Origin: Polynucleobacter sp. UB-Tiil-W10
GTDB taxonomy: Bacteria; Pseudomonadota; Gammaproteobacteria; Burkholderiales; Burkholderiaceae
DNA: 64,000 nt
NCBI RefSeq assembly: GCF_018881605.1
Contig: NZ_JACVPZ010000001.1
Coordinates: 1 to 64,000, forward strand
Direction: 5' to 3'
Part shown: positions 1 to 19,383 of the stretch, piece after piece
How positions within the stretch are numbered: position 1 is the first letter of the stretch
Layout: every line of letters begins with the position of its first letter
The notes under the pieces: generated by a model
Seen by the model: only the letters and a program-made list of their open reading frames with translations
Databases searched by the model: none
What the model was told of the DNA's origin: nothing
Position numbers and translations under genes: made by a program

Positions 1-390
1 TATGACCGTAGTCGTCTTTACCATCGCGGCCATAAGATTCTCTATCTTTGCCATCATGGTTGTAGCCTTCGTGGTCATAGCCATTTACATAGCCATCGCC
101 TGCTTTATAGTCATCGCGAGTATGACCGTAGTCGTCTTTACCATCGCGGCCATAAGATTCTCTATCTTTGCCATCATGGTTGTAGCCTTCGTGGTCATAG
201 CCATTTACATAGCCATCGCCTGCTCTATAGTCATCGCGAGTATGACCGTAGTCGTCTTTACCATCGCGGCCATAAGATTCTCTATCTTTGCCATCATGGT
301 TGTAGCCTTCGTGGTCATAGCCATTTACATAGCCATCGCCTGCTTTATAGTCATCGCGAGTATGACCATAGTCGTCTTTACCATCGCGAT
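1..390 (-). repeat. 120-bp tandem repeat inside the adhesin gene
   Basis: Three full 120-bp copies lie at 1-120, 121-240 and 241-360, followed by a diverging partial copy from 361. The full copies differ at one base only (C at 225 where the others have T), which changes Lys to Arg. Each unit encodes 40 residues that divide into eight pentads such as GYDHE, GYNHD, GKDRE, SYGRD and GKDDY. The array continues beyond the left edge, so the total copy number is unknown. Confidence 0.95.
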
Positions 391-2224
391 CGTAACCATC
401 CTTGTCTAGACCTGTTTTTTCGTCATAGCCACCATCAACCGATATTGAAAGCTTATTGCCAGAATTATTAGTCACTATCAAATCAGAAACATTAGCATTT
501 GTATCTGGGTTAGCAGTATTTATATAAGCGGTAATATTAGAATTATTATTTCCAGCACCCTCAATATCACTTACTTTAATAGAGCCTGTCTTTGCAATTA
601 CCTGCCCATCAACTTTATTAAATGTTACCTTGTAACTATTATTGTTAACGGTAACATCAAGGGATTTACCCTCTAGCTCGGCAACATCTCCACCAGTAGC
701 ATGTACTGTAAACACTAGGGAGCCTTTCGCATCGGCTTTATTATCGGTTGCATCGCTAGACAAAGTTAGGGTAGTACGATCATCGACTACATGGACCGAT
801 TGCAAGCTATCAGAGGCAGTCACTGAAGAGACCTTGTAGTCGCTTTCAGCAGCTTCTAATGGAGAGGTAAAGCCATCTGTTGTGCCTGCCCCTACTGCAA
901 CCACCTTAACGCTGTAGTTGCTACCGTGTTGCTCGGCGCCAATCTCAAAAGATTGATCTAACTGATTTAAAGGAATGTACTTGGTGATAACAGCAGTGCC
1001 ACTGCCATCGGTAGTGTTGTGCAGCTCTACTTTAGCAACTAGACCTGATAGGTCTGAGTTAGAAACATCTACCCCGTGCTCCACATTCAGGTGATAAGTA
1101 ATCGTGCCGGTTTCTTCGTTAACTGTTACGCCTTGACCGTTACCAGAAGCTAGACTCACAGTGACATGGTCATCTTGAACAGTGAATGTATCAGTCGTAT
1201 TTACATGCGTCAGATTCGGATAGTTGCTAGCAGTAAAGTTATTAGGGTTTGAATAATCAGTAGCTCCAGCATTGAGTTTATAGAGATGAGAATCATCAAC
1301 AGTTACTGTAAATGTATGGCCATGAAGCTCGCTAGTATCTATCTGAAACAACTCAGTGCTTGAAGACTTGACAGGCACGAAATATGGGGATTCGCTAACT
1401 TTATTGCCGTTAGCGTCAAACTCAACAAGCATAACCTTTGCGTAATACCCGGTGGTGATATTTCCCGATGTAGCCGTAATATCTAATTGGTAAGTGAATT
1501 TGGAATCGTCAGCAACGCTAGCACCTCTATCAGTGGTGAGATTCAGGGAAATATGATTTACATCTGCTGTACCGGAAGTGTGATATTCAGTATTAGAAGC
1601 AGATGGGTCAGGATTAGTAACTGCATCAGGGCCAGTTGCATTCTTATGGTTATCGCTGCTAGGAGAATTGGAAGATGTCGAGCTAGCTTGTGTAGGCGAA
1701 GATGCGCCCTCTGCATTGCTTTGGGGGCCTTGAGATCCCTCTCCACCTTGTCCGCCTGTTTGACTGCCCGCAGGTCCTCCAGGCACTTTTGTGACACCTG
1801 CTGGACTAGTGCTCTCGCCACCCCTACTACCACCTCGAGATGAATTAACTGCATCAGCCGCTTGCTGCGTTGCAGTCTCTGCACCTCCACCTGTACCAAC
1901 GCTAGAGCTTCCATCATTTCTAATAGTTGCGTTGATTTTTGAGGTTGATCCAGGCCCGTTACCATCAACCCCCGCGCCATCTAAACCAGAGTTATTGCCA
2001 GCACTGTTGTAATCGGGGCGATTATCGTTAGGGCTGGTTCCCTTATTTAAGAGACTGGGTCCATCTGGCGAGGATACATTGTTAGGTTTTACGTCACCTT
2101 GTGAACCGGCAGTTTCCGGGCCAACACCCTCAGATCCCGTAGTCGGCTGCTGCAAGGAAGTCACATTATCTAAATGCTCTGCATCTTGAGCTTGTTGAAC
2201 TACATTTGGGTTTGCGTCAGCCAT
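1..2224 (-). CDS. Giant repetitive surface adhesin, N-terminal part (cut by window edge)
   Basis: The frame opens at ATG 2224 after an AAAGAGAGA purine run and stays open to base 2, giving 741 residues with no stop; the C-terminus lies outside the window. Residues 1-200 are low-complexity, rich in Gly, Ser, Asn, Thr and Gln, with no cleavable signal peptide, as expected for a type I secretion substrate. Residues about 200-595 look like several Ig- or cadherin-like beta-sandwich domains rich in Asp, Asn, Thr and Val. From residue 605 to the edge the sequence is a pentad pattern of the form G-[YK]-[DN]-x-[DE], organised into near-identical 40-residue repeats. The Asp/Gly-rich composition suggests calcium binding. 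It is the last visible gene of the minus-strand secretion operon and is probably the exported cargo. The adhesin role is inferred from architecture and context; RTX nonapeptides and a secretion signal would lie at the unseen C-terminus. Confidence 0.8.
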   Translation of the reverse strand, partial: MADANPNVVQQAQDAEHLDNVTSLQQPTTGSEGVGPETAGSQGDVKPNNVSSPDGPSLLNKGTSPNDNRPDYNSAGNNSGLDGAGVDGNGPGSTSKINATIRNDGSSSVGTGGGAETATQQAADAVNSSRGGSRGGESTSPAGVTKVPGGPAGSQTGGQGGEGSQGPQSNAEGASSPTQASSTSSNSPSSDNHKNATGPDAVTNPDPSASNTEYHTSGTADVNHISLNLTTDRGASVADDSKFTYQLDITATSGNITTGYYAKVMLVEFDANGNKVSESPYFVPVKSSSTELFQIDTSELHGHTFTVTVDDSHLYKLNAGATDYSNPNNFTASNYPNLTHVNTTDTFTVQDDHVTVSLASGNGQGVTVNEETGTITYHLNVEHGVDVSNSDLSGLVAKVELHNTTDGSGTAVITKYIPLNQLDQSFEIGAEQHGSNYSVKVVAVGAGTTDGFTSPLEAAESDYKVSSVTASDSLQSVHVVDDRTTLTLSSDATDNKADAKGSLVFTVHATGGDVAELEGKSLDVTVNNNSYKVTFNKVDGQVIAKTGSIKVSDIEGAGNNNSNITAYINTANPDTNANVSDLIVTNNSGNKLSISVDGGYDEKTGLDKDGYDRDGKDDYGHTRDDYKAGDGYVNGYDHEGYNHDGKDRESYGRDGKDDYGHTRDDYRAGDGYVNGYDHEGYNHDGKDRESYGRDGKDDYGHTRDDYKAGDGYVNGYDHEGYNHDGKDRESYGRDGKDDYGH

Positions 2225-2355: not shown

Positions 2356-4176
2356 TCAACGTTTAAATACCGCTACACCTTGAACAACGTTGCTTCCTGT
2401 AGAGAAATTATATGAAAGTCCAGCTGCCTGAGCTGGGTTTCCAGGGGCATTCCCATAAAAAACTACATTTCCAGAACCATTACATGCTGCAGTACATATG
2501 GAATTTGATCCGCTAGTTTTCACCACAGAAGTAGAAACAGTATTACTGTCAGCTGCTGCACTAAGGGAACCAGCAATATTCATATTCAAAAATGCATAAC
2601 CCGTTGGTTGGTTGGTATAAAGAGCTAAATTGCCAGTTAACTGACTGCTAGCAAAATTAGCTGTGAGATTGCCGCCAGTAACAGCCCATTGAGAACCTGC
2701 AACAGTATTAACATAGGTTGGGGTTGTAGCACCAACCAAAGAAAAGTTGAGAGTGGTTGGTCCTGTATTGAGGTACTGTTGGAGACTGGTTGGATTGGTA
2801 CGATCCCCTACTATGAAATGGAAACCATTGCCAGCCGGCATAGCCAACAGATTGCCGTTGTTATAGTCCGCGATGATCACATTACCATTAGCCCAGCGCC
2901 CCCAAGAAACTACGCCAGCAAGATTACCGCCCTCCATTTGTTGTGCAGTTCCAATAGCAAATGTCATAGGTATAGATGGGTTACCTTGCGCAAAATACGT
3001 AGGGTACTCAAGACCAATGTAGGTAATGTAAGTATTCAGACCGCTTCCAGCGGTAGTAATCGCATTAAGGCCAGTCTGGGGTAGCGCGGGAGCAGAGGTA
3101 GTGCTTGGCCAGCCAGGCCAATTGGAGTCAGGCAATATATTGTGCTGAGGCAAACCATCTGGTTGAATAGATCCTCCACTAGCAAGAGGCCATACCTCCG
3201 CCTTCTGCAAATAATAAGAATAGCTTGCTGGAGTTGGAGCAATCCCATCGCCCTCAGGCTTGTTGTAAAGCTGAGATGCATAAGGTGCAAATGGTGAGAT
3301 GCCTGTTGCTAAATATGGGGAGGGATTGACTACTATCCCCATCATCATGGGTAGCGGCGAGCTTGGTATGGCTACTTGCTCATCTGCGCCTTTTGCTGGC
3401 GGAGTTACGGCAACCGCCAATGAAGGTATATCGGTCGTGTTTCCCCTGCCCTTCGGTTTGGCAGACTTTTGTCCGGCAAGTGGATCAGGTAAGAAATTGG
3501 GTGGTTGCGATAAACGTTTTGCTTGTGAATTGTCATCAGCAACATAGGCATATTGATCGACACCTAAAGCTTCAGTTCCTGCCTTATTCTTAATCGTAAT
3601 TTGCCCCTCAAACACGCCTGCATATAAGCCATCTTTTACAGGGGTCTTATCAGTATTCAGGCAGTTACCTTCGCAATAGTTCAGGTTATAACCTGTACCG
3701 CGAATACCTACAGTAGCTACAACGGCATTTACTTGCAGGTTATCTTTGTTCTCACGACCAATCGACCCCGTCACTGCGCGAACACCGCCCTTGACTAGGC
3801 TAAGGTTTGCTTTTTCTGATCCATCAGATTTGCCGTTGAACTTGTATTCATTAATCTTAAATTCGGTTTGCGCACGCAAAGCAATCACAGCAGCATCACT
3901 CATCCGAATTTGGGCATTACTTGCAATGCCTGTAATAACAGTATCGCCCGATTGAATAGCAGTGTTTTTAGGTGCAGGAATAGTCTGGCCATTACGATTA
4001 ATTTTGACATCGCCAATCGACATCAAGACACGACCAGCTTCTGCAGTGGATTGTGCGTGGGCGACTGGAGCTATTAGAGACGATATCAAGATAGTCACTA
4101 CCGCAACGCTCTTTGCGGCTTTAGCCAATCGCGAGAAGAATGGGTGCATAAATGATTGACCCTGTAGATGACTCAT
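2356..4176 (-). CDS. FecR-domain exported protein with C-terminal barrel-like domain
   Basis: The start at ATG 4176 overlaps the TGA of the preceding gene (TGATG) with GGAG nine bases upstream; a longer reading from 4221 is less likely. This gives 606 residues. A signal peptide ends near residue 41 (PVAHA-Q). A FecR domain follows at about residues 47-190, with the typical GDV...SGD core and the ATVGIRGTGY motif. Residues about 190-360 are a Pro-rich linker. The last 240 residues have alternating Gly and aromatic strands, a WGRW motif and the ending GVAVFKR, which recalls the small beta-barrel of TbpB-like Slam substrates. In this family FecR domains occur on surface or periplasmic proteins and are not always linked to iron sensing. 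Being coupled to a TPR-barrel protein and next to the adhesin, it may anchor or accompany the adhesin. No lipobox is evident. Confidence 0.75.
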   Translation of the reverse strand: MSHLQGQSFMHPFFSRLAKAAKSVAVVTILISSLIAPVAHAQSTAEAGRVLMSIGDVKINRNGQTIPAPKNTAIQSGDTVITGIASNAQIRMSDAAVIALRAQTEFKINEYKFNGKSDGSEKANLSLVKGGVRAVTGSIGRENKDNLQVNAVVATVGIRGTGYNLNYCEGNCLNTDKTPVKDGLYAGVFEGQITIKNKAGTEALGVDQYAYVADDNSQAKRLSQPPNFLPDPLAGQKSAKPKGRGNTTDIPSLAVAVTPPAKGADEQVAIPSSPLPMMMGIVVNPSPYLATGISPFAPYASQLYNKPEGDGIAPTPASYSYYLQKAEVWPLASGGSIQPDGLPQHNILPDSNWPGWPSTTSAPALPQTGLNAITTAGSGLNTYITYIGLEYPTYFAQGNPSIPMTFAIGTAQQMEGGNLAGVVSWGRWANGNVIIADYNNGNLLAMPAGNGFHFIVGDRTNPTSLQQYLNTGPTTLNFSLVGATTPTYVNTVAGSQWAVTGGNLTANFASSQLTGNLALYTNQPTGYAFLNMNIAGSLSAAADSNTVSTSVVKTSGSNSICTAACNGSGNVVFYGNAPGNPAQAAGLSYNFSTGSNVVQGVAVFKR

Positions 4177-5495
4177 CAGTTTGAACTCCAATCGTAGCGC
4201 AGTTTTAATGCGCCTGTCCATTGCTGATAGGAATACAGAGGTAAATTAGAGGTGTTGTTGTAGTAAGTCGCCTCTAAGCGTGCACTCAGTTCTTTGGTTA
4301 ACTTATATTGCAGCACGGCATTACCAGAAAGTAAATTATCACCGCGACCTGTTTGATAAACAATATCGGATGCCTGATAGTTACTGCGCGCATAACCTGC
4401 GCCGAGGGTCAGACCCCACTTATCAGTTGGCACCACACTCAATTGCACAGTACCGCCACCAATATGACGTGCTAAATCCGGTCTATTAGAAGTATTAATT
4501 TGACTGGCGTAATTAGCCCCTATGTCAACAACGGGCTTCCATCGTGTTGTTGGAAATGCCTTACGGTAACCTACGGTCCCTACGTTTAACGTAGAGTCAT
4601 AAGCACTATATTGTGTGGAGTAATTCATCCGTGTACTACCACCACCCACCATAACGGACTGGGTTTCTGTTAGTTGGCGTACATATTCAGCGCCACCACC
4701 ACCTGTATTTGGAACGGGGATTTGATCGAGTCTTGCCAAACTACCAAAAGCAACCACCTTATACAAGTTAGGGCCGTCTGCATATTTGACACCAGTAGTT
4801 GCATTGCTGACGTCTAAGTTATATCCACTAATCTGGGAATAGCGTTGCTGACTGGTGTTGACGCTGACAAAGCCACTGACATTAGTGGCAAGCGGAACAA
4901 CTGCATTCACACCAACACTGTCATAAGAAAAAACGGAGGGTTGCGGTAGCGACGTGGGAGACAAAAATACGGGCCCCCAATACGGCAAGACAATATTGTT
5001 AATAGCGGCAGCAGTATTCACATTGCTGTTGTAACCCATGCCGAGTTCGATGTAAGCACCATAGACTGGCTTGTAACGCCCTTCTTTTTCTTTAATCGCA
5101 TCTAAGTAAGTATTGACAGTTGCCACTACACCGGCTGGTGGCTGACGTTTTTTGACTTCTTCAAACTCTTCTTTTGCCCGTTGATACTCCCCTAAGGCAA
5201 AGTAGGCGCGGCCCAATTCCAGTCTAACTAAATCATTATTAGGATCAGCTAAAAGCACACGCTCTAGAGATAGCACGCCTAAAGAAATTCGACCTGAATC
5301 AACGGCAGCAACACCGTAGTAGTAATCAAATAAGGTATCGCCCATGAGCTCAGGATGCTGATTGCCTAATTCATATGCTTCCTTTGCTTTCCCTTTTTCA
5401 ATTAATACCTTCATCTCATCAGGTACAGCTGCAAAGGAAACCGCAGCACTGGCGCTGAGCAAAACAAAGCAGAGCATCTGCAATAGATTTCGCAT
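4176..5495 (-). CDS. TPR plus outer-membrane beta-barrel protein, Slam-like
   Basis: ATG 5495 is chosen because it places a clean signal peptide (cleavage near SFA-A, about residue 23) at the N-terminus; an upstream GTG at 5543 adds 16 unlikely residues. The protein has 439 residues. Residues about 25-130 form TPR-type helical repeats (LGRAYFALGEYQRAKEEFEE). Residues about 150-439 are a predicted beta-barrel starting at GMGYNSNVN and ending with the aromatic strand LRYDWSSN, suited to BAM insertion. TPR followed by a barrel is the layout of Slam/DUF560 proteins (type XI secretion), although this one is shorter than the roughly 490-580 residues of neisserial Slams. Its stop overlaps the start of the FecR-domain gene, so the two are probably made in fixed ratio. 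Function as an exporter is inferred. Confidence 0.7.
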   Translation of the reverse strand: MRNLLQMLCFVLLSASAAVSFAAVPDEMKVLIEKGKAKEAYELGNQHPELMGDTLFDYYYGVAAVDSGRISLGVLSLERVLLADPNNDLVRLELGRAYFALGEYQRAKEEFEEVKKRQPPAGVVATVNTYLDAIKEKEGRYKPVYGAYIELGMGYNSNVNTAAAINNIVLPYWGPVFLSPTSLPQPSVFSYDSVGVNAVVPLATNVSGFVSVNTSQQRYSQISGYNLDVSNATTGVKYADGPNLYKVVAFGSLARLDQIPVPNTGGGGAEYVRQLTETQSVMVGGGSTRMNYSTQYSAYDSTLNVGTVGYRKAFPTTRWKPVVDIGANYASQINTSNRPDLARHIGGGTVQLSVVPTDKWGLTLGAGYARSNYQASDIVYQTGRGDNLLSGNAVLQYKLTKELSARLEATYYNNTSNLPLYSYQQWTGALKLRYDWSSN

Positions 5496-5558: not shown

Positions 5559-6488
5559 TTAATTTAAATAAGGATCTTTAAGTACTTTTTTATAGCACTG
5601 AATAAAGGCAGTATGTTGTTGATCGAACTCTGCGCAACGTGATGCCACTTTTAAAGTGCGTCGATGCAATTCGTCTTTGTCCATATGATAAGGACCTTTT
5701 ATTTCTTCAAAAAGTTGCGCACGACGAGCTAAATAATTCGATTCAAAACCGCTCAAACCATAAAAGACGATTTCTTGGCTACTGAGGCGATATACACCTT
5801 TATATTGGTGCGATTGCATAGCCTGGAATAAATCTGGTGGCATACCCATCTCAGAAAAATAGGATGAGAGTGAACTCTCAAAGTTTTCTAACAGGCGTTT
5901 AGCGGCTGGATTGGAATTTATATCCACTTCCTTTAGGATTTTGGCATTGTTGTCGCTGACAGTAATGCGACCCCGATGAATTCCAATGGAATAAGCAGGT
6001 GCTGCTCGTACTACCCCACTAGCCAATACCAAGATGCAAGCGCTAGCGCACTGCCCAGTAACAAAGGTATGGGCATTTGCTTTACGCAACAAACGTCCCA
6101 TTTCCATGGCAGCCATACCATCCCCGCCTGCAGAATCCAACAACACGATCAATCCAGCTGGAATCGGGTCACCCTTCACTTTAGGCAAGGCCTGCTTGAG
6201 GGAGATCAGGGTATTTTTTGATATAGGACCTTGAATACCAATCACAACTGCCCGATCCCCGTTTTCATCAACAAGAGGGGTAGACTGATTTGTAGACCCC
6301 TCTCTTACAGAGCTATTAATAGACTTGCTCACTTCGTCATCTAGGGAAACAACATAAAGAGAGGCATTGACTACCGGCAAAGAAACGTGACTTGCGCTGA
6401 CAGCAGTACTCATAAATAGAGCGAGGAATGCACTTGCCCCTAATTGGCATGCTTTCTGTAAAGTGGAAGCAATCATTGGAGTATTCAT
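5559..6488 (-). CDS. Exported ClpP/crotonase-fold serine protease-like protein
   Basis: This 309-residue protein has an N-terminal hydrophobic signal segment (residues 10-32). The core resembles the ClpP/SppA-type fold: LDSAGGDG is the oxyanion-hole loop, GQCASACILVLAS holds a Ser at the nucleophile position of ClpP GQAAS, and SIGIHRGR holds a candidate catalytic His. The third catalytic residue is not obvious by eye. Cytoplasmic ClpP has no signal peptide, so this protein is expected to act in the periplasm. The start ATG overlaps the TGA of the LuxR-type gene (ATGA), showing translational coupling. In the adhesin secretion operon it could process or release the adhesin, or clear failed secretion products; this is inference. 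Several Cys residues in the C-terminal part may form disulfides, which fits an exported location. Confidence 0.65.
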   Translation of the reverse strand: MNTPMIASTLQKACQLGASAFLALFMSTAVSASHVSLPVVNASLYVVSLDDEVSKSINSSVREGSTNQSTPLVDENGDRAVVIGIQGPISKNTLISLKQALPKVKGDPIPAGLIVLLDSAGGDGMAAMEMGRLLRKANAHTFVTGQCASACILVLASGVVRAAPAYSIGIHRGRITVSDNNAKILKEVDINSNPAAKRLLENFESSLSSYFSEMGMPPDLFQAMQSHQYKGVYRLSSQEIVFYGLSGFESNYLARRAQLFEEIKGPYHMDKDELHRRTLKVASRCAEFDQQHTAFIQCYKKVLKDPYLN

Positions 6489-8197
6489 GATTTAGCCGCA
6501 CTCACAGGCATCGCCCCTAAATGGCGAATAGCTTCAGTGGTATTGATATCCCTAAAATCAAATCCACCTTCAATGCCAGGAACAATCAAACCAAAACTCG
6601 TTAATTCATGAATTGCGGCTTGCGCTTTGTGATGAGAGTCACACTCTTGCTCTATTGCCGCAGTAAGAGAGACCTCTGGATTATTCGCGGCATTATTCAA
6701 AATCGTGCGCGCTGTATCAGAAAGATTATCTAGGATGACTTGGTAATCCACCTGGATACCCTCTGGGAATACCGCACCCTCAGGCTGTGTCATCGTAAAT
6801 GTACGTGAAAAAGGTTGTTCATTTGGCCGCGACCCCAGTAGGCGCGCACATGTTTGACGATTTCCAGTTTGCGGTAAATTTGCAGCCACAATAATGATCG
6901 GTCGAGCAGCCAGCAAATCGATGCCCGACTCTCCAAGCAGCATCTTGAACGAATCTAAAGTTTTAAGCCCATAAAGCTCAACCATCAAGGGGGTTGACTG
7001 AGCAATCTGACCAAGCAATCCAGCAATGCGCTCGCCAGCAGTGTTATAGATTTTTTTCTCTTCTAAACCAAGCGACTCAAAGAAGACTTCAATTTGCTTG
7101 GAGTAGCTCGCCAGCAAACGATCACGGCGATTATTGTTTGGAGCCCTTAAGCGCAATAACAAAATACCTCTTGCATGAGCAAAGTTACCCATCGCATCCA
7201 TGAGAGAACTCGCAGCCAAAGGAGGCCAGGACTCTACAGAGAGCCATTGCGCAATACCTTCTTGTACGTTGTCGCAAACCCTACTCATGAAAGGCAAACC
7301 ACCCCACTGCAAACTGCTATCCACCAGAGGTGCAGAACTTGGTCCAATAGCGCAAATCTCACCAACATTCCGTAGCTCAATCGCCTTACCGCCATCACGC
7401 GTACGGATATCCAACCAAGGTAGCGAATGAGGTGATAATTTTTTGGTTAAAAAATCAGATAAGGGGCGACGTAAAATTTTAGAATGCTGTGCTAGCAAGG
7501 TCGCTTTACGATAAGCATCGGCAGCATAAAGACTCTCTATACCCTCTTCTACCAACTCAGGGTGAGATGCCACTCCAATTCCCAGGTCATGCTTACCTGC
7601 CAGCATAGCCAAATGCTGAGTGGCATAGAGCTTCATCCATTCAGCCATATATTGAGCGAAATAAGCAGCCCTATCACTATCATCTAAATGGGCTTTAGGA
7701 TGGCCAAACCAAGCCACCAAACTACCATCAGGAGAAATAGTGAGACGTCCATCCAAACTATCAAGTAAGGACTCTGCTTGTTTTTGCAAATCCACTAAAA
7801 AGTGATTTCTGATGGTGATTGACTCAAAGCTACTAGCAGACGCTACAAAGTCCGGTAACGCTAAGCTCACCGCTGAAATTAAGCGCCACTGATAACGCTC
7901 AGCCTTTTTATGAGCAGCAGTTCCTTTTGAGGAGCTGCTTTTAAGGGGGCCGTGTTCAGACTGACGACTACTGTTTGATTTGAGCAATTGCTCGGCAACC
8001 ACTGCTGCCTTGGCGCGGCTAACTACGCCTAATTTTTTAAACAGCACAAATAAGTGCTGTTTAACGGTGCCCTGCTCAATCGCCAAATCCGTAGCAATCT
8101 CTTTGTTGCTCTTACCTTCCGCCAACAGCCCAAGAATTTGCTGTTGGCGTTCGGATAGGGACAGGCTTTTATCAGGGCTATTTTTTAAGGTGGCCAT
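6485..8197 (-). CDS. LuxR-type regulator with N-terminal HTH and cyclase-like region
   Basis: Residues about 12-75 are a LuxR/GerE helix-turn-helix (LSERQQQILGLLAEGKSNKEIA followed by a GTVKQHLFVLFKKLGV recognition helix). Most LuxR proteins carry this domain at the C-terminus, so its N-terminal position is unusual. Residues about 100-260 weakly resemble a class III nucleotide cyclase: a DGSLVAWFGHP segment followed by DDSDRAA, and an IGVASHP segment followed by DAYRKATLLAQ. The metal-binding Asp pair is not convincingly present, so any such domain is probably a sensor, not an enzyme. The remaining 300 residues are alpha/beta and not recognised. The 570-residue protein has no membrane segment. 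It sits mid-operon between hlyD and the ClpP-like gene and is a candidate local regulator of the adhesin system. DNA target and ligand are unknown. Confidence 0.65.
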   Translation of the reverse strand: MATLKNSPDKSLSLSERQQQILGLLAEGKSNKEIATDLAIEQGTVKQHLFVLFKKLGVVSRAKAAVVAEQLLKSNSSRQSEHGPLKSSSSKGTAAHKKAERYQWRLISAVSLALPDFVASASSFESITIRNHFLVDLQKQAESLLDSLDGRLTISPDGSLVAWFGHPKAHLDDSDRAAYFAQYMAEWMKLYATQHLAMLAGKHDLGIGVASHPELVEEGIESLYAADAYRKATLLAQHSKILRRPLSDFLTKKLSPHSLPWLDIRTRDGGKAIELRNVGEICAIGPSSAPLVDSSLQWGGLPFMSRVCDNVQEGIAQWLSVESWPPLAASSLMDAMGNFAHARGILLLRLRAPNNNRRDRLLASYSKQIEVFFESLGLEEKKIYNTAGERIAGLLGQIAQSTPLMVELYGLKTLDSFKMLLGESGIDLLAARPIIIVAANLPQTGNRQTCARLLGSRPNEQPFSRTFTMTQPEGAVFPEGIQVDYQVILDNLSDTARTILNNAANNPEVSLTAAIEQECDSHHKAQAAIHELTSFGLIVPGIEGGFDFRDINTTEAIRHLGAMPVSAAKS

Positions 8198-8250: not shown

Positions 8251-9456
8251 CTAGCGCTCGCGCATACCCTGTTTAAAGGCAACAAAGATAGGACGCAATA
8301 AGTACCTTAAAACAGACTGATGGTCGGTCACAATATCGGCCTGCACTGTCATGCCTGGATCAATTGTCTTGTCCTCGCTATTGCCAACAAAAGTCTGTGG
8401 CAAGCTAACAATGACTTTGAAATAAGGCTGCTGCTTTTCATCCAAGGTACTGTATGAAGAGACCATGGAGACGGTGCCATTGATCGTGCCATAGCGCATG
8501 AAATCAAACGTACCAATCTTTAAGCGAGCTGCTTGGCCTTTTTTCACAAATCCAATATCAGTTGGCGCAATACGCACTTCAGCATGCATCTTGCCATCCA
8601 AAGGAACGACGTTCATTAAAGTAGCGCCTGGAGGAACTACTCCGCCAACAGTACGGAACTTTAAATCTTGAACTACGCCATCAACTGGGGATAGTACGTC
8701 TACGCGATCTAAACGATCACGCAATTTATTAAGCTGCTCTTCTGTTTGAGCTAATTCAGATGAGGAGTTATTTAAGTCATCCATATTGGTACGGCGGTAA
8801 CGCAATAACTCTGCTTGTGCCTGACTCAAGCTACGCTGGGCATCCAAAGCCGCTACACGTGTTGCCAACTTCTCTTTAGCCAAGTCGCTACGAATGGCGC
8901 TCACTTCACCCAAAATCTTAATTTCGTTTTGCAACTGACTGATCTGATCTTTAGATGTTTTTAAGGTGAATTCCTGCTCTTTCACCATATCGCCATACTC
9001 TTCTGGAATCTTTGAAAAATCTGCAGGGCGATCACTCAAGAGAGCACGCAAGCGCTCGACCCTGGCATATAGGCTCCAGTATTTAGCTGCCAAGGTTTGG
9101 TATTCAGCGCCAGCTTCCGTAGAATTCAAGCGCATTAAGACCTGACCTTCGGTTACTGTCTGACCATCCACCACATCAATGGTTGCGATTCTGCCGCCAT
9201 CTACGTGCTGAATAATCTTCACGGCCTGAATCGGCATAATTTGACCCGGTGCCACAGCAACGACATCCAAGGTTGCAAATAGTGACCATAAAAAGAAGAT
9301 GCCAATAGCGTAGCAAATCAACTTTACAGTTGTACGCATATATGCAGGTGGCGAAGCCTCTTCAAGCAATATTGCTTTCGCAACATAGTTATCAGTGCGC
9401 CCGCCCAAAGTTAACTTTGTTTTTTCTTCAGGATTCGTATCTGGTTGCGTACTCAT
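8251..9456 (-). CDS. Type I secretion membrane fusion protein, HlyD family
   Basis: The protein has 401 residues, with a cytoplasmic N-terminus, one membrane helix at about residues 42-62 (LICYAIGIFFLWSLFATL) and a periplasmic body. The typical HlyD start of the lipoyl half-domain is visible (APGQIMP followed by VDGGRIATIDVVDGQTVTEGQ in two short segments). A long coiled coil spans about residues 125-230, and the second lipoyl half follows (VLSPVDGVVQDL). The C-terminal beta-barrel ends with DPGMTVQADIVT. Family knowledge places it as the periplasmic adaptor joining the ABC transporter to the outer-membrane channel. It lies 47 bp after the ABC transporter gene and 53 bp before the LuxR-type gene, in the same direction. 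Confidence 0.93.
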   Translation of the reverse strand: MSTQPDTNPEEKTKLTLGGRTDNYVAKAILLEEASPPAYMRTTVKLICYAIGIFFLWSLFATLDVVAVAPGQIMPIQAVKIIQHVDGGRIATIDVVDGQTVTEGQVLMRLNSTEAGAEYQTLAAKYWSLYARVERLRALLSDRPADFSKIPEEYGDMVKEQEFTLKTSKDQISQLQNEIKILGEVSAIRSDLAKEKLATRVAALDAQRSLSQAQAELLRYRRTNMDDLNNSSSELAQTEEQLNKLRDRLDRVDVLSPVDGVVQDLKFRTVGGVVPPGATLMNVVPLDGKMHAEVRIAPTDIGFVKKGQAARLKIGTFDFMRYGTINGTVSMVSSYSTLDEKQQPYFKVIVSLPQTFVGNSEDKTIDPGMTVQADIVTDHQSVLRYLLRPIFVAFKQGMRER

Positions 9457-9503: not shown

Positions 9504-12500
9504 TTAAGCAGCGGTTGGCTGTTTCAACAGTACATCGGGAGGACCCGCCGCCCTGAGGTAGCCTTTATCTAAAACTAACAAGGTATCGGCCATGCGAATA
9601 TGGCTTGGACGATGGCTAATAAACAGAACGGTTGCCTTACCCTTCAGAGCTTGCAACGCTTCCATAAACTTCTGATCGCCATAGTCATCTAGTCCAGCGC
9701 CAGGCTCATCAAACAACATGATGGGTGCACGGGTCAGATAAGCACGCGCCAAGGAAAGTTTTTGCTTCAAGCTCGATGGGAGCTCATTCGTGTTATCGCC
9801 AACACGGTAATCAATGCCCTTAGGCAAAGCCAAGATTTGATCTAAGGCACCCGCCATCTCTAGGGCTTGATAAACCTCATCATCCGTTGCGTCTGGCCTT
9901 GCTAAACGCAGGTTCTGAGCAATCGTCGCACGGAACAATTGGGTATCTTGGGGAGCATACCCAACAATACGTCGAAGCTCTAAAGGATCGAGCTGGCGGA
10001 TATCGACGTTATCGATCAAGATCGAACCCGCTTGCGGCTGGTACATACCCAAGATCAATTTAAGCAGCGTTGATTTACCACCGCCATTAGGACCGCTAAT
10101 GGCTACTAAATCACCTGGATTAATGCGGAACTCCACACCAATGAGAGCAGGATCAACGTTCATGGAATACCGGAATGAGACGCGGGCAAAATCAATGCGC
10201 CCTTCAAGTCCACGAGAAACCAAGGAAGTATTGGTTTCTTGACGCTCACCTTGAATCTTCATCAAACTATCGATTTGACGTGTCGCATTACGCACACGCT
10301 CAATACGAGTCATATTGGTGAAAATCGTTTGAATAGGATTAAGCACTCTCCACATTAAAAGCATTGAAGCAATCAGTGCTCCAGAAGAAACGACTTGCAT
10401 GATGACTGCCGGAACTGTCGCAGAAATAATCAACAGCGCAGATGCCATCATCACGAAATACGAAATCGCGACCAAAAGTGAAGAGAGTTGCTCGGCTTTG
10501 TAAGAAGCCATAGTGGCATTAGCTGAAATCTCACGGAAGCGCTCCAACCATAATCCCTGGGCGCCGCACTCATGAATAATGCGCATCTTGCCAACCATCT
10601 CGACTAGGAATTCATTACGCTTCGTAATTGAGCGACCCACCGATGCAACACGATCATGAGTTTGGCCAGCAAAAATCCAATACAAGAGTGCATACACCAC
10701 CAACATCACGGCAAAAATAATTAATGAAATTGGATTGATGATGGATAGCGCAATTAAAAGCACCAAGGTTGCTGGTGACTCTAGAATCGTTGAGGCCAAG
10801 GGTCCCGTAAACATATCGCGAATTGCTTCAAAGCTTTGTAAGCGAGCGGTTTGTGAACCAACTGAAGCACGTTCGGTATAAGCAGGTGACATCTTTAAAA
10901 CCTGCTGCAAAATCGTAGCGCCAAACAGATACTCAATACGTCCTGCGATATACGCCAGGATATTAGCGCGATGCTTCATGAAGTGATAACCAGCACCTAA
11001 AGCGATCCCTGCGCCAATGGCGAGATAAACCAAAGTATCTTTTGCACCCGCTGGGATAACGTGGGTGTAAACAATCGAGAGGAATATTGGGCCGGACATC
11101 ATCACCAAGCCAGATACCAAGGCGGAGATAGTTGCCTGTCCAATAAGTGGCATAAAACGTCTTAAGACACGCCCTACCCACGAGCGCTGATCTGCAAGAT
11201 TGACTTCTGCTAAGTCATAGAAATAGGCCTTACCGCGCATATCGAGTCTTGGCTCTAAACGACCTTCACTACTCTCGGTATCGCCCACGCGCATTTGATT
11301 GCCGATTTTTCCCATCACCACAAAAGCAGGAATACTCTCATCGGGTACAAATAAACATGGCAGTGAACGTGGCTCTAAAGAACCTAAGTCACATTCCACT
11401 TCATTGGTGACGTAACCCAGTTGAGATAAAGCATTATGAAAACCGGTCAAATCAAGACTGTCCGCATAATAAGGGAGTGCTTCCGCTACTTCGCGTGAGG
11501 TGCCACGCGCATTCATTAATCTCAACAGTAAAGATAGGCAACCGGATAAATCTGTTTGCACTTTGAAGTTACCGGCAACGGTTTCGTTTGTTTTTTTCCA
11601 ACGCTCTTTGTCAAGATAGCTAGTTTTATAGGGCGATGAAAAGTACTCTGCTTTAGATACAGGATGGTAATTAGCGGGCAACCCTTGCGAAGAAGTCATT
11701 CCTGAAACTGCTGCCGGAGCATTAGAAGCTTCCCGAATTGAACTTACCTTGCCTGGATCCACATCTAATAGCTGACCCTCATTAAGGAACATGGTTCGGT
11801 TAGCCAAACGCAAGAATGATGGTCTCTGGGAAACGATCACCAAAGTTACCTTGCCACGAACTGCCTCTAAGAACTTCAAGAAGACCGCGTCCCCTTCTGA
11901 ATCCATTACAGAAGTCGCATCGTCAAACAAAATAATATTGGGTTGATTAGAGAGTGCTCTGACAATCGCAATACGCTGGCGGTAACCTGGTGGCAATGAA
12001 TCCGCGGCCATATCACCCACAATCGAATCCCAACCACGTGGCATCTTCGATACAAAGTCGCCCAAGCCTAAGGTTTTAGCAGTGCTTAATGCACGATCAA
12101 CCCTGGCAGGATCAAAGACACTGACGTTATCTAATAAGGAGCCTTCAAACATCACTGCCTTTTGCGGCAGATAGGCTACTTTTTCTGTAATGCGATTGAC
12201 ATCAATATCCAAGATAGATTGGGCATCGATAGAAACTATGCCGGAGCTTGGCGTCAATATGCCAGCCATCAACTGCAATAAAGTGCTTCGACCAGATCCA
12301 CTGCCGCCCTTAACAGCCAAACATTCGCCAGGAGCAATCTCAAACGATAGGTTGGTAAATAAATCCGTTTTTAGACCAGGGAAGCGATAAGAAACGTTTT
12401 CAAATTTTAGGCCAGCGGGATGCAGTGGGCGATCAACCACGGTTGGCACCAGATCAAAAGAGCGTGGCTCCACAACCAAACCTGGTTGCTTGAGGATATC

Positions 12501-13808
12501 GGCCAAATTGTCTCTTAACACTTCATCTTGCTGATACTTTGCCCACATGCCACCCAATCTTTGCAGTGGAGCTAAGGAGCGCATACCTAACAAAATACAA
12601 GCTGCTAATTCACCATTCGTTAAATGCCCTGTAATGACCAACCAAGCACCAAGCGCTACCACCATCATATTCATGAGGGGTGAAAAAATATTACCAATAC
12701 CAGAAGACATGTCTAAGGCATAAGTCACCTTTGACATAATCCGCGCGCATCCTTCTTGAAGACGCTCGTATCTGCGCAGCATCAACGACTCCATCGTCAT
12801 TGACTTCAGCGTATGAACATTGCCTAGGGTTTCATTTAAGAAATTGGCGCGACGCAAGTCAGCTTGCTTTTGCTCTTTAATTAACTCTGGATCCTGACGA
12901 CCATTTCTCCAGGTGATGAAAATAAATATGCTGTATCCAAACAGCAGCAAAAGGCCTACCCATGGACTCAGGATGAAAACAATAAACACATATAACAAGG
13001 TAAACGGCAAATCCATCAATTGCTGAAAGGTTTGTCCAGAGTAGTGATACTTCAACGTAGAGACAGACTTGAAACCATCCATCACCGTACCGGTACCCTT
13101 ACGCTCAAATTCATTTAAAGGTTCAGCCAAGGTTCTCTCAGCGACAGACATTAATGCGCGGTGCTCAAAACGCGCAGAAATCCATGCAGTAGTGAAGGAT
13201 CGAAGTGCGCGCACAATCGATTCAAGCGCCACGGCTAGAGCAACCGCCACTGCAACAATGCCCAATGTATCGAGTGATTGATGGGGCAAAATGCGGTCGT
13301 ACAACTGCAGCATCAGCAATGGAAATGCTAAAGCTAATAAATTAATCACAATGCTGGAGGCAATGATCGTAGTGCGCTCACCATCAAAAGGAGAAAGCAA
13401 ACCAACGGCACGCTGTGCCTCAGTAGGATTGCGAATCTGTTTTAAACGGATGACAAGATTGCGCATGTCCTCAGCAAATGCACTCCACTCTTTTTCAGAT
13501 AGGCTTTTAAATTGCTTATAGTGCGCAACAAAAAGCGGCACCCAGTATTGGGGCTTGAGTCTTGCTAACCAGATTTTGGATTGCTCTTTGGCAATACCAA
13601 CAGCATCGGTGGAGTGGCCTTTGATTTCAGCCCTTGAACCCCAAATTTTGCGTTGTACTGTCAATACATCATTCTTGACTACCTGAAAGATTGCATTGCC
13701 TGCACGCAGTAGTAACTCATATATATAACCTAATGCATACAAACAGTAGCCAAAAAGCTGCACTAGCTTTTGGTACGCATCTTTTAGGGATTGAATGAAT
13801 TTATTCAT
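9504..13808 (-). CDS. Tandem fused type I secretion ABC transporter
   Basis: This 1434-residue protein contains two complete half-transporters, where type I secretion ABC proteins usually have about 700 residues and dimerise. The first half has a long N-terminal extension, a membrane domain at about 140-440 and NBD1 at about 470-690. The second half starts with a C39-peptidase-like domain (about 740-880) lacking a clear catalytic Cys-His pair, then a membrane domain at about 890-1180 and NBD2 at about 1200-1420. NBD1 looks degenerate: Walker A reads GGSGSGRST with Arg507 in place of Lys, the residue after Walker B is Asp630 where Glu is usual, the signature is LPPGYRQ, and the H-loop has Gln661. 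NBD2 keeps Lys1245, LFDEP and the ISHRP His, though its signature is LPSSLKQ. Hydrolysis is therefore probably asymmetric. It is 27 bp downstream of the efflux lipoprotein gene. Confidence 0.9.
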   Translation of the reverse strand: MNKFIQSLKDAYQKLVQLFGYCLYALGYIYELLLRAGNAIFQVVKNDVLTVQRKIWGSRAEIKGHSTDAVGIAKEQSKIWLARLKPQYWVPLFVAHYKQFKSLSEKEWSAFAEDMRNLVIRLKQIRNPTEAQRAVGLLSPFDGERTTIIASSIVINLLALAFPLLMLQLYDRILPHQSLDTLGIVAVAVALAVALESIVRALRSFTTAWISARFEHRALMSVAERTLAEPLNEFERKGTGTVMDGFKSVSTLKYHYSGQTFQQLMDLPFTLLYVFIVFILSPWVGLLLLFGYSIFIFITWRNGRQDPELIKEQKQADLRRANFLNETLGNVHTLKSMTMESLMLRRYERLQEGCARIMSKVTYALDMSSGIGNIFSPLMNMMVVALGAWLVITGHLTNGELAACILLGMRSLAPLQRLGGMWAKYQQDEVLRDNLADILKQPGLVVEPRSFDLVPTVVDRPLHPAGLKFENVSYRFPGLKTDLFTNLSFEIAPGECLAVKGGSGSGRSTLLQLMAGILTPSSGIVSIDAQSILDIDVNRITEKVAYLPQKAVMFEGSLLDNVSVFDPARVDRALSTAKTLGLGDFVSKMPRGWDSIVGDMAADSLPPGYRQRIAIVRALSNQPNIILFDDATSVMDSEGDAVFLKFLEAVRGKVTLVIVSQRPSFLRLANRTMFLNEGQLLDVDPGKVSSIREASNAPAAVSGMTSSQGLPANYHPVSKAEYFSSPYKTSYLDKERWKKTNETVAGNFKVQTDLSGCLSLLLRLMNARGTSREVAEALPYYADSLDLTGFHNALSQLGYVTNEVECDLGSLEPRSLPCLFVPDESIPAFVVMGKIGNQMRVGDTESSEGRLEPRLDMRGKAYFYDLAEVNLADQRSWVGRVLRRFMPLIGQATISALVSGLVMMSGPIFLSIVYTHVIPAGAKDTLVYLAIGAGIALGAGYHFMKHRANILAYIAGRIEYLFGATILQQVLKMSPAYTERASVGSQTARLQSFEAIRDMFTGPLASTILESPATLVLLIALSIINPISLIIFAVMLVVYALLYWIFAGQTHDRVASVGRSITKRNEFLVEMVGKMRIIHECGAQGLWLERFREISANATMASYKAEQLSSLLVAISYFVMMASALLIISATVPAVIMQVVSSGALIASMLLMWRVLNPIQTIFTNMTRIERVRNATRQIDSLMKIQGERQETNTSLVSRGLEGRIDFARVSFRYSMNVDPALIGVEFRINPGDLVAISGPNGGGKSTLLKLILGMYQPQAGSILIDNVDIRQLDPLELRRIVGYAPQDTQLFRATIAQNLRLARPDATDDEVYQALEMAGALDQILALPKGIDYRVGDNTNELPSSLKQKLSLARAYLTRAPIMLFDEPGAGLDDYGDQKFMEALQALKGKATVLFISHRPSHIRMADTLLVLDKGYLRAAGPPDVLLKQPTAA

Positions 13809-13835: not shown

Positions 13836-15599
13836 CTAGGGTTTTTGTTGCACGATTGGCAAAGGCATTGGCTGCGGGTTATTTGGCGCTGTATCGCCAG
13901 AATTTGCCGCAGGCGCCTTAGGAAGTGGGCGTAGATCAAAATCAACTTCTGGAGACTGCAATGGATTTTGATTAAGAGATGGGCCAACACCACCTTTGCC
14001 ATTATTTTTCTCGTAGCCAGGTTGTCCAGCGGCATTCACACCAACAGCTGTTTTCTTCGCAAATGCGGAATCTGTCTTCTCTTGCACTTCAACCCAACGT
14101 GCATCTGCCTTTGGAAGACGTCCACCACCAAGGCAGGGATCGTTATCCAAGGATGTACCACCGCCAATGGACTTGAAAAGATCTACTGAAGCACGTAACT
14201 GATCATTACGAGCACCAATGGCAGAATCTTCGGCAGCCAAAACAGTACGCTGAATTTCATAAAGTTGAACGTAGTCCATGCCGCCTCTTTCAACCACTTT
14301 TGCGCTCATTTCAGCAAGGCGTTGGGCACGTACACGAGAATCGTTCAAAGACTCATATTGCTTAGCGGTTAAGTTCACGCCCGACAAACTATCTTCCACG
14401 TCACGCAATGAAGAGAGCACTGCGTTTGCATAGGCCTCAAGCAATTCGACATTCTTTGCACTAGCAACTTGAATTTCAGCGCGCCTTCTACCACCATCAA
14501 ATACGTTCTGAACAAGGTTAGTAGTAATGTTGTAGAACAAACTTTGCGGCATTGTCAATTGAGACAACAAGAAACTGCCGTAACCTGCACCACCTGTCAA
14601 AGCAAAGGTAGGCAACAAATTGGCTCGTGCAGCATAAAGGTCTGCCTTAGCCGCTTCTAGCGCTGCTTCCGCCCTTCTTACGTCAGGACGACGGCATAGT
14701 AAGTCCGACGGTAAGCCAGGAGAAATAACGGGAATCTTAATTTTCTCAATCGATCGAGACTGCAACTTCAGTGTCGAAGGTGTTCTGCCAACAAGCGCTG
14801 CTAGTCGATTAAATGCACGCTCTCGCTGCAATTTTAAGGCGGTCACTGAAGCATCTGTATTGGTTTGCAAAATGAGCTGCTGTGACAAATCAATAATCGT
14901 GGCATCACCGCGATCAACACGGCGCTGCAATCCTCTGCCGACGGTGCGGATGGCCTCTAAGTTGCGCTCTCCAACCGCAATACGCTCATCCAAAGAAACT
15001 ACCAAGAAATACGTAGTTGCGGTATCCCCTACCAAGCTCAGAGCAACGGCTTGTCGGTTGTACTCACTTGCCAAAGCTTGAGAGAAAGCGGATTGGGTAT
15101 TAAAGCCTTTTTTACCCCAAAGATCGACCTCGTAGTTGGCCAAGAAACCAGCTTGCCATAAAGGCTGACTTCCCCACTGTGAAGTGCTAGATGCATATCC
15201 AGGCCCAAGTCCAGGGGCTTGGTTACGATAAGAAGCGCCAAAATCAATGGTTGGAGATTCGTTGGCCTTAACCACATCAGCCTGAGCTCTTGTCTGGGCA
15301 ACACGTGCAACGGCAACGCGAAGATCATAGTTATTGGTCAATGCGGTATCGATAAGACCATTAAGCTCTTCACTCTCAAAATCCTGCCACCAGAGTTCTT
15401 TGGGGCGTGGAAGTTGTTGCTCCACAGGAGCGCGGAATGCATCTGGCATCCAGCGGATGTATTCAGGGCCATCAGGCGCATCACCCTCTTTGGTTATAGG
15501 GGTAGTGCATCCGGTGAAGACCAATGCAGCGCAAGCTAATGCGAGAGGTAGACGCGCAAAACGCAATCGAGGTACAACACGGCGGCTAGGTCTAGTCAC
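13836..15599 (-). CDS. TolC/OprM-type outer-membrane channel lipoprotein
   Basis: The chosen start is GTG 15599, which gives 587 residues and a lipoprotein signal with lipobox VFTGC near residue 30. A TTG about ten codons later is an alternative. The body is an outer-membrane efflux protein of the NodT/OprM group: two homologous halves with long helices (NYDLRVAVARVAQTRAQADV; DVRRAEAALEAAKADLYAARA) and the usual end at LFKSIGGG. Beyond this point there is an extra tail of about 106 residues rich in Pro, Asn and Gly, which standard OprM proteins lack. It is first in the operon and presumably the outer-membrane duct for the adhesin secretion system. Lipoprotein OMFs are more typical of RND pumps than of type I secretion, but the adjacent ABC and HlyD genes argue for the secretion role. 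Confidence 0.88.
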   Translation of the reverse strand: MTRPSRRVVPRLRFARLPLALACAALVFTGCTTPITKEGDAPDGPEYIRWMPDAFRAPVEQQLPRPKELWWQDFESEELNGLIDTALTNNYDLRVAVARVAQTRAQADVVKANESPTIDFGASYRNQAPGLGPGYASSTSQWGSQPLWQAGFLANYEVDLWGKKGFNTQSAFSQALASEYNRQAVALSLVGDTATTYFLVVSLDERIAVGERNLEAIRTVGRGLQRRVDRGDATIIDLSQQLILQTNTDASVTALKLQRERAFNRLAALVGRTPSTLKLQSRSIEKIKIPVISPGLPSDLLCRRPDVRRAEAALEAAKADLYAARANLLPTFALTGGAGYGSFLLSQLTMPQSLFYNITTNLVQNVFDGGRRRAEIQVASAKNVELLEAYANAVLSSLRDVEDSLSGVNLTAKQYESLNDSRVRAQRLAEMSAKVVERGGMDYVQLYEIQRTVLAAEDSAIGARNDQLRASVDLFKSIGGGTSLDNDPCLGGGRLPKADARWVEVQEKTDSAFAKKTAVGVNAAGQPGYEKNNGKGGVGPSLNQNPLQSPEVDFDLRPLPKAPAANSGDTAPNNPQPMPLPIVQQKP

Positions 15600-19229: not shown

Positions 19230-19383
19230 TTAGTCAGGTGTCCAATCATTTTTCAATTCCCAGACCCAAAATCAGGTGCCGGGGGATCATTTATACAGCC
19301 ATACAAATGAATTAGACACGTAAATTTACTAAAAACTCATAAATTGTTGCAATTGGACAACAATTTAGACAGTTGTATAGGAC
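19230..19383. promoter_or_regulatory. Upstream region of the MerR-cyclase gene with inverted repeat
   Basis: A perfect 9-bp inverted repeat, AAATTGTTG and CAACAATTT, lies at 19341-19349 and 19358-19366. Related motifs of the form TTAGACA or TTGGACA occur near 19313, 19353, 19365 and, inverted, near 19239. Their spacing near the start of a gene encoding a MerR-type HTH suggests autoregulation. This is inference from pattern only. Confidence 0.35.

Follow-up and report, generated by a model that had tools for sequence, protein, structure and literature searches.

A single-chain ABC exporter with altered ATP-site motifs in a type I secretion gene block of Polynucleobacter

The fused exporter and its ATP-site motifs

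The window analysed here comprises 64,000 nucleotides of Polynucleobacter sp. UB-Tiil-W10 (contig NZ_JACVPZ010000001.1, positions 1 to 64,000); the host is a freshwater bacterium with a genome of 2.04 Mb in two contigs. The minus strand of the window carries a gene for an ATP-binding cassette (ABC) exporter in which two unlike half-exporters, ABC1 and ABC2, are joined in one chain, each with a transmembrane domain (TMD) and a nucleotide-binding domain (NBD). As judged from the motifs, neither of its two composite ATP sites is of the textbook kind. The features of the gene are as follows.

9504..13808, minus strand: fused ABC1-ABC2 exporter gene, an open frame of 1434 codons with homologues
13371..13808, minus strand: N-terminal extension, residues 1-146, without Pfam match and variable in length among relatives
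12474..13370, minus strand: TMD1, about residues 147-445 (Pfam ABC_membrane at 148-407)
11739..12407, minus strand: NBD1, about residues 468-690, degenerate (Pfam and HlyB alignment)
12288..12290, minus strand: Arg507, at the Walker A Lys position of NBD1 (HlyB alignment, relatives)
11982..11996, minus strand: LPPGY, residues 605-609, signature loop of NBD1, expected to complete the ATP site of NBD2
11919..11921, minus strand: Asp630, at the catalytic Glu position of NBD1 (HlyB alignment, relatives)
11826..11828, minus strand: Gln661, at the H-loop His position of NBD1 (HlyB alignment, relatives)
11169..11573, minus strand: C39-like domain, about residues 746-880, between both half-exporters (fold comparison)
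10239..11156, minus strand: TMD2, about residues 885-1190 (Pfam)
9519..10202, minus strand: NBD2, about residues 1203-1430, with canonical Walker A, Walker B and H-loop
10074..10076, minus strand: Lys1245, Walker A of NBD2 (motif alignment)
9768..9782, minus strand: LPSSL, residues 1343-1347, non-canonical signature loop of NBD2, expected to complete the site of NBD1
9705..9707, minus strand: Glu1368, catalytic Glu of NBD2 (motif alignment)
9612..9614, minus strand: His1399, switch His of NBD2 (motif alignment)

In the whole exporter, ABC_membrane and ABC_tran are each matched twice by Pfam, and the domain order is N-terminal extension (about 146 residues), TMD1, NBD1, linker, C39-like domain, TMD2 and NBD2. 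The initial annotation, which gave no strand, had described two half-exporters in one chain of 1434 residues, and the frame is indeed open throughout. Our recount agrees with its numbering of Arg507, Asp630, Gln661 and Lys1245, and places the switch His of NBD2 at residue 1399.

Alignment of NBD1 with the solved HlyB (7sgr) bears out the proposed loss of the Walker A Lys, the catalytic Glu, the H-loop His and a normal signature. The Walker A motif GSGKST of HlyB reads GSGRST, LSGGQ reads LPPGY (ahead of RQRIAI), FDEATS reads FDDATS, with Asp630 for the Glu, and AHRLS reads SQRPS, with Gln661 for the His. NBD2 retains Lys1245 and the switch His, as had been noted, together with Glu1368; its signature is LPSSL in place of LSGGQ. 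The ABC signature motif completes the ATP site of the partner NBD (excerpt of PMC7756269), so the odd signature of NBD1 bears on the site of NBD2, and this 'live' site, which LPPGY should complete, would also be without LSGGQ. On its motifs, site 1 is predicted to be degraded in each of these elements, and site 2 to be canonical apart from the signature supplied by NBD1. The earlier reading of one dead ATP site fits the degraded site, but the remaining site is also non-canonical, LPSSL in NBD2 having been missed; the signature of NBD1, rightly seen as abnormal, concerns the composite site of NBD2 rather than that of NBD1.

A C39-like domain had been proposed for the second half, and comparison of folds is in favour of it. 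This part alone matches Pfam Peptidase_C39 below threshold (E 0.014); a Pfam scan of the whole protein at E <= 0.1 listed no C39 domain, and no C39 protein came up when the sequence of the C39-like part was searched by itself against the PDB. Its structure model (predicted local distance difference test, pLDDT, 65.6) has 3b79 as best Foldseek match in the PDB (E 1.1e-4; template modelling score 0.60 by target, 0.41 by query), with the ComA peptidase 3k8u (E 5.5e-4) and HlyB (8dck, E 6.2e-4) as the only other chains at E <= 0.001; all three are C39 or C39-like. The model supports a C39-like domain ahead of TMD2, as in the HlyB/LssB type. By C39 motifs, the putative position of the catalytic His is occupied by Ala in all 10 rows compared. 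At the conserved Cys757 position, placed by motif as well, Cys is also present in 11 of the 14 readable LssB-type controls described below. Judged by these motifs, the domain is likely to have no catalytic pair remaining.

Conservation, selection and distribution among relatives

The motif comparison covers 70 paired systems in which both halves are complete. Of these, 42 are fused and 28 are two-gene systems, in which ABC1 and ABC2 are neighbouring open reading frames (ORFs). The fused systems include 22 from the window's clade (21 Polynucleobacter and one Limnohabitans) and 20 others, namely 18 from genomes of the phylum and two of the three Azospirillum plasmid matches covering at least 80% of the query. 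The 70 systems are fetched loci and form a subset of all search matches, and their rows are related sequences rather than independent ones. The set leaves out partial rows of the genus (L036, L041-L045) and a locus whose second half matches poorly (L139); loci in which one half is absent, truncated or split (L047, L052, L054, L085, L088, L091, L145); shorter or repeated copies (L009-L015, L017, L046, L048-L051, L053, L055-L057, L066, L086, L087, L089, L090, L092, L093, L147-L154, L156); and other ABC genes or distant matches (L002-L008, L018, L019). Thirty loci from the highest-scoring LssB-type matches served as controls, a choice that biases them towards typical LssB and was made irrespective of any partner gene.

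At position 507 of NBD1, Arg is found in 22/22 systems of the window's clade and Lys in 48/48 others; among the 70 systems the Lys to Arg change in Walker A is thus limited to that clade. Position 630 is Asp in 22/22 rows of the clade and Glu in 20/20 other fused systems, the two-gene systems having Glu in 25/28 and Asp in 3/28. Because the 22 rows share one ancestor, the Lys to Arg and Glu to Asp changes count as one origin each. Position 661 is more variable: the window's clade has Gln (17) or Glu (5), the other 20 fused systems have W, Q, E, S, L or P but no His, and 13 of the 28 two-gene systems have His. These varied letters suggest that the H-loop His was lost repeatedly in NBD1. Among the partial rows of the genus, L036, L041 and L044 carry the same residues at all three positions, and L042, which is without Walker A, has Asn instead of Asp at 630 and Gln at 661; the broken copy L043 has the Arg before its frame is lost, and L045 stops before the motifs.

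LSGGQ is absent from either NBD in all 70 paired systems and present in 28 of the 30 LssB-type controls, the other two having VSGGQ and LSSGQ. The second signature position of NBD1 is Pro in 68/70 systems and Ala in 2/70, the fourth is Gly in 70/70 and the fifth, the Gln position, is hydrophobic or Ala in 70/70. NBD2 keeps its Lys and Glu in 70/70 and its His in 69/70 (Gln in L073).

With respect to the nearest relative (93% identical), the ratio of non-synonymous to synonymous substitution rates (dN/dS) is 0.020 for NBD1 and 0.010 for NBD2, rough values because dS is about 2.0 and 1.3, respectively; for more distant pairs, dS was inestimable for several domains. Mean identity in the 22 rows is 68% for NBD1, 85% for NBD2, 78% for TMD1, 76% for TMD2 and 64% for the C39-like domain. 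By these estimates NBD1 is under purifying selection, looser than that on NBD2 yet constrained. Frame or sequencing errors, which the initial annotation had raised as a possible explanation, are refuted by the complete Polynucleobacter/Limnohabitans copies, 22 out of 22 of which share Arg507 and Asp630 in open frames.

The distribution of the fused exporter gene within the genus is patchy. Matches at E <= 1e-150 occur in 27 of 186 genomes of the genus; 10 of 369 genomes sampled from the class have a match at E <= 1e-120 and 50 of 398 from the phylum at E <= 1e-110, the window's own genome being counted each time, and it is the sole match at E <= 1e-120 in a family sample of 100 genomes. Four Polynucleobacter contigs, among them that of P. 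alcilacus (L010), encode homologues that are 64-76% identical over the best segment. The fused gene is also carried by a Limnohabitans contig, and further fused homologues come from three plasmid records of Azospirillum and from other families within the phylum. With matches in 27 genomes of the genus and fused homologues elsewhere in the phylum, the form is less unusual than had been supposed, but no published single-chain case was found: open-licence PMC literature, searched at the level of titles and the start of abstracts, gave no single-chain type I secretion exporter, a weak negative. One copy in the genus (L043, genome G031) is broken, with its frame lost near residue 627.

In a tree of all 70 rows (LG+G4) and in a mixture-model tree of 33 rows, a single branch splits the fused from the two-gene systems (Shimodaira–Hasegawa-like approximate likelihood ratio test, SH-aLRT, 97 and 95), which is the pattern expected from one fusion.

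Neighbouring genes and the candidate cargo

The exporter gene is part of a block on the same strand, with the following other members.

13836..15599, minus strand: TolC-like outer membrane efflux protein of the NodT subfamily, immediately upstream (NCBIfam)
8251..9456, minus strand: HlyD-type periplasmic adaptor, directly downstream (NCBIfam)
6485..8197, minus strand: operon member with a LuxR-type helix-turn-helix (HTH) domain, C-terminal part without Pfam match (Pfam)
5559..6488, minus strand: operon member with a weak, sub-threshold ClpP match (Pfam), present in L010, L012, L014 and L057
4176..5543, minus strand: operon member with tetratricopeptide repeats (TPR) and a weak outer membrane barrel match (Pfam)
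2356..4221, minus strand: FecR-domain protein, operon member (Pfam)
2..2224, minus strand: N-terminal part of a repeat-rich surface protein, the likely cargo, cut by the contig end within a 120-bp tandem repeat

A type I secretion gene set is present, consisting of ABC exporter, HlyD-type adaptor and outer membrane channel, and the setting first proposed for the exporter is confirmed by the adaptor and channel genes on its two sides. The adaptor scores 304.7 with the HlyD model (cut-off 208.65) and the channel protein 251.7 with the NodT model (cut-off 210.05); with the type I TolC model, the channel protein reaches 80 and fails the cut-off of 225.15. In all 42 loci checked (16 fused and 26 two-gene), an HlyD gene comes after ABC2 in the same orientation, the order in these 26 two-gene loci being ABC1-ABC2-HlyD. 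It is followed by a LuxR-type HTH gene in 4/4 Polynucleobacter/Limnohabitans loci checked and in 9/9 loci of the neighbouring fused clade, and in none of three other fused loci (L094, L095, L152) or of the 26 two-gene loci, for eight of which the absence says little because about 1 kb or less was available beyond HlyD. AAA_16 is found in three HTH proteins of the neighbouring fused clade and not in that of the window, so these proteins may share little beyond the HTH. Two HlyD-type genes flank the fused exporter in six of the nine loci of the neighbouring fused clade (L148, L151, L153, L154, L155, L156); such pairs could perhaps form a mixed adaptor ring matching an asymmetric pump.

The 40-residue repeat of the surface protein (window positions 1-388) also runs, on the same strand, off the opposite contig end (L158 positions 17990-19945), where the ORF terminates in a tail resembling that of the 2338-codon ORF of G070. 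On the basis of the shared repeat, strand and tail, the ORFs at the two contig ends are taken as one gene, which the contig break in the 120-bp repeat seems to interrupt, the ORF at the opposite end being its C-terminal part. The block of channel, exporter, HlyD, HTH, ClpP-like, TPR, FecR and surface protein genes is also found in L010, L012, L014 and G070 (L057). In Limnohabitans, Cadherin_4, Big_9 and RTX repeats occur in a large upstream ORF, an Ig-like giant gene adjoins the fused exporter in two Azospirillum records, and large repeat-rich ORFs stand beside the exporter in L152 (2667 codons) and L062 (>2000 codons). From this we infer that the exporter secretes the adjacent repeat-rich surface protein. 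A search of the host genome for a LapG-type protease (PF06035) found none at E <= 0.001, the control search having found that of Caulobacter, so that LapDG-type release of the surface protein is unsupported. A Polynucleobacter 'giant gene region' has been described (excerpt of PMC5644125) and may be related to the present locus.

Proposed mechanism, alternatives and known systems

The product of the gene is, in our view, probably a full-length, asymmetric exporter for type I secretion, derived by fusion of neighbouring ABC1 and ABC2 genes, that exports the adjacent surface protein. A gene for ABC1, in which no C39-like domain was detected, would have been fused to one for ABC2, which has such a domain; the fusion would lock the unlike halves at 1:1 and ensure their pairing. 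NBD1 and NBD2 of the same chain would pair in the manner of heterodimeric exporters like TM287/288. Site 1 (Arg507, Asp630 and Gln661 with LPSSL of NBD2) is predicted to hold ATP with little or no hydrolysis, and site 2 (Lys1245, Glu1368 and His1399 with LPPGY of NBD1) to hydrolyse it with a modified signature loop; site 1 would remain shut around ATP during opening and hydrolysis at site 2, the behaviour suggested for exporters with a degenerate site (excerpt of PMC7756269). The one C39-like domain per pair would dock the cargo without cutting it, and the surface protein would exit via HlyD and the NodT/TolC-type channel. We infer the asymmetry of ATPase activity from the motifs.

Several observations speak against this interpretation. 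The whole protein passes the NCBIfam cut-offs of LssB (TIGR03375; 786 against 693.1), PrtD (TIGR01842; 585.4 against 510.15) and CydC (TIGR02868; 357.4 against 329.05), and the halves alone do not: the second and first halves reach 441.2 and 351.5 for LssB, the first and second 326.3 and 268.1 for PrtD, and at most 214 is obtained for CydC. The LssB score of the whole protein is about the sum of those of both halves; the passes are therefore sums, and neither half is a family member by the cut-off test. The second half also misses the LSGGQ typical of LssB. Database family names can, in fused proteins, rest on two sub-threshold halves summed. Hydrolysis at the 'live' site is an assumption, because three residues of LSGGQ, namely Ser, the first Gly and Gln, are missing from the loop of NBD1. 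A model of residues 235-1434 (10 rows) has a mean pLDDT of 48.9 and a predicted template modelling score (pTM) of 0.30, too poor for NBD pairing, and the tree tool flagged long branches meeting, including that of the Polynucleobacter group joining the other fused rows. The link to the cargo is one of gene position only: in most two-gene loci no such ORF is seen within the short flanks that were fetched, and for the large ORF in L152 no Pfam match exceeds its cut-off.

A wider proposition, which we regard as evenly poised, concerns the clade as a whole. A broad clade of paired and fused type I exporters would have replaced the ABC signature, with site 2 hydrolysing ATP in the absence of three signature residues, Ser, the first Gly and Gln; the single-chain form of Polynucleobacter would be the most reduced end seen, and the other site non-catalytic throughout. 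An L-P-x-G-hydrophobic signature at the working site, clade-wide, is beyond the degenerate-site precedents cited in the excerpt of PMC7756269.

It is unlikely, although it is the strongest of the alternatives, that neither site is a normal ATPase and that the pump is very slow or strictly gated by its cargo, nearer to an ATP-gated channel or a cargo holder. The loss of LSGGQ from both NBDs in 70/70 systems, as against its presence in 28/30 controls, would fit such a protein, as would the large repeat-rich ORFs alongside several loci, but the Lys and Glu of NBD2 are invariant, its His is kept in 69/70 and NBD2 is the most conserved domain within the window's clade. We give distinctly less weight to a cargo other than the neighbouring surface protein: gene order is the sole link, and large repeat-rich ORFs are not seen in the short flanks fetched for most two-gene loci, but channel, exporter, HlyD and surface-protein genes form one block in the window and in L010, L012, L014 and L057. 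Slightly less probable again is hydrolysis at both sites, with Arg, Asp and Gln or Glu tolerated. NBD1 of the two-gene systems keeps its Lys in 28/28, Glu in 25/28, His in 13/28 and all three in 10/28, so that both sites may have been active in the ancestor, and Glu to Asp is a conservative change; against this, the window's clade alters all three positions jointly (22/22), opposite a non-canonical partner loop. Decay of the gene, or a sequencing or frame error, is rejected as hardly credible despite the broken copy in G031 and the patchy presence in 27/186 genomes of the genus, given the conserved open homologues, the identical changes in 22/22 complete rows and the low dN/dS.

Type I secretion has mostly been modelled on homodimers, for example HlyB. 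The natural asymmetry of a single chain would allow each ATP site to be mutated alone, without mixed dimers, and such an exporter lets one ask how many working ATP sites are needed for the export of a very large protein. Clade-wide loss of LSGGQ from both halves would probe what the signature motif is for.

The proposed exporter resembles the HlyB and LssB/LapB type (TIGR01846, TIGR03375) in its TMD-NBD layout, its C39-like domain and the neighbouring HlyD and outer membrane channel genes, and differs from it in having two unlike halves per chain, one C39-like domain per pair, a degraded NBD1 and no LSGGQ in either NBD. The first half has no C39 match, as in the PrtD type (TIGR01842; solved as 5l22), but it has degenerate motifs, the N-terminal extension of about 146 residues and a sub-cut-off score of 326.3. 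Two different ABC proteins, RtxB and RtxE, both apparently needed, serve the secretion of MARTX (excerpt of PMC3034196). This four-component system likewise has two ABC proteins per type I system, encoded by separate genes and not in a single chain; the comparison is by description. The initial annotation had stated that asymmetric sites are known in other ABC exporters, which is correct and extends to TmrAB, a degenerate-site heterodimer that has been presented as the type I secretion system in Thermus (excerpt of PMC8277102). With the RtxB/RtxE and TmrAB precedents, asymmetry as such is less novel. In the degenerate site of ABCG5/G8 the Walker A Lys is replaced by Arg, and in Pdr5 every motif is changed (excerpt of PMC7756269). 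The present exporter shares with TM287/288, TmrAB, TAP, Pdr5 and ABCG5/G8 the combination of one intact NBD (NBD2, with its Lys, Glu and His) and one degraded NBD (NBD1, without them); in contrast to them, the signature completing the site of the intact NBD, LPPGY from NBD1, is also non-canonical, and a C39-like domain lies between the halves. The exporter type itself is known, and the variant described here is inherited and not an artefact.

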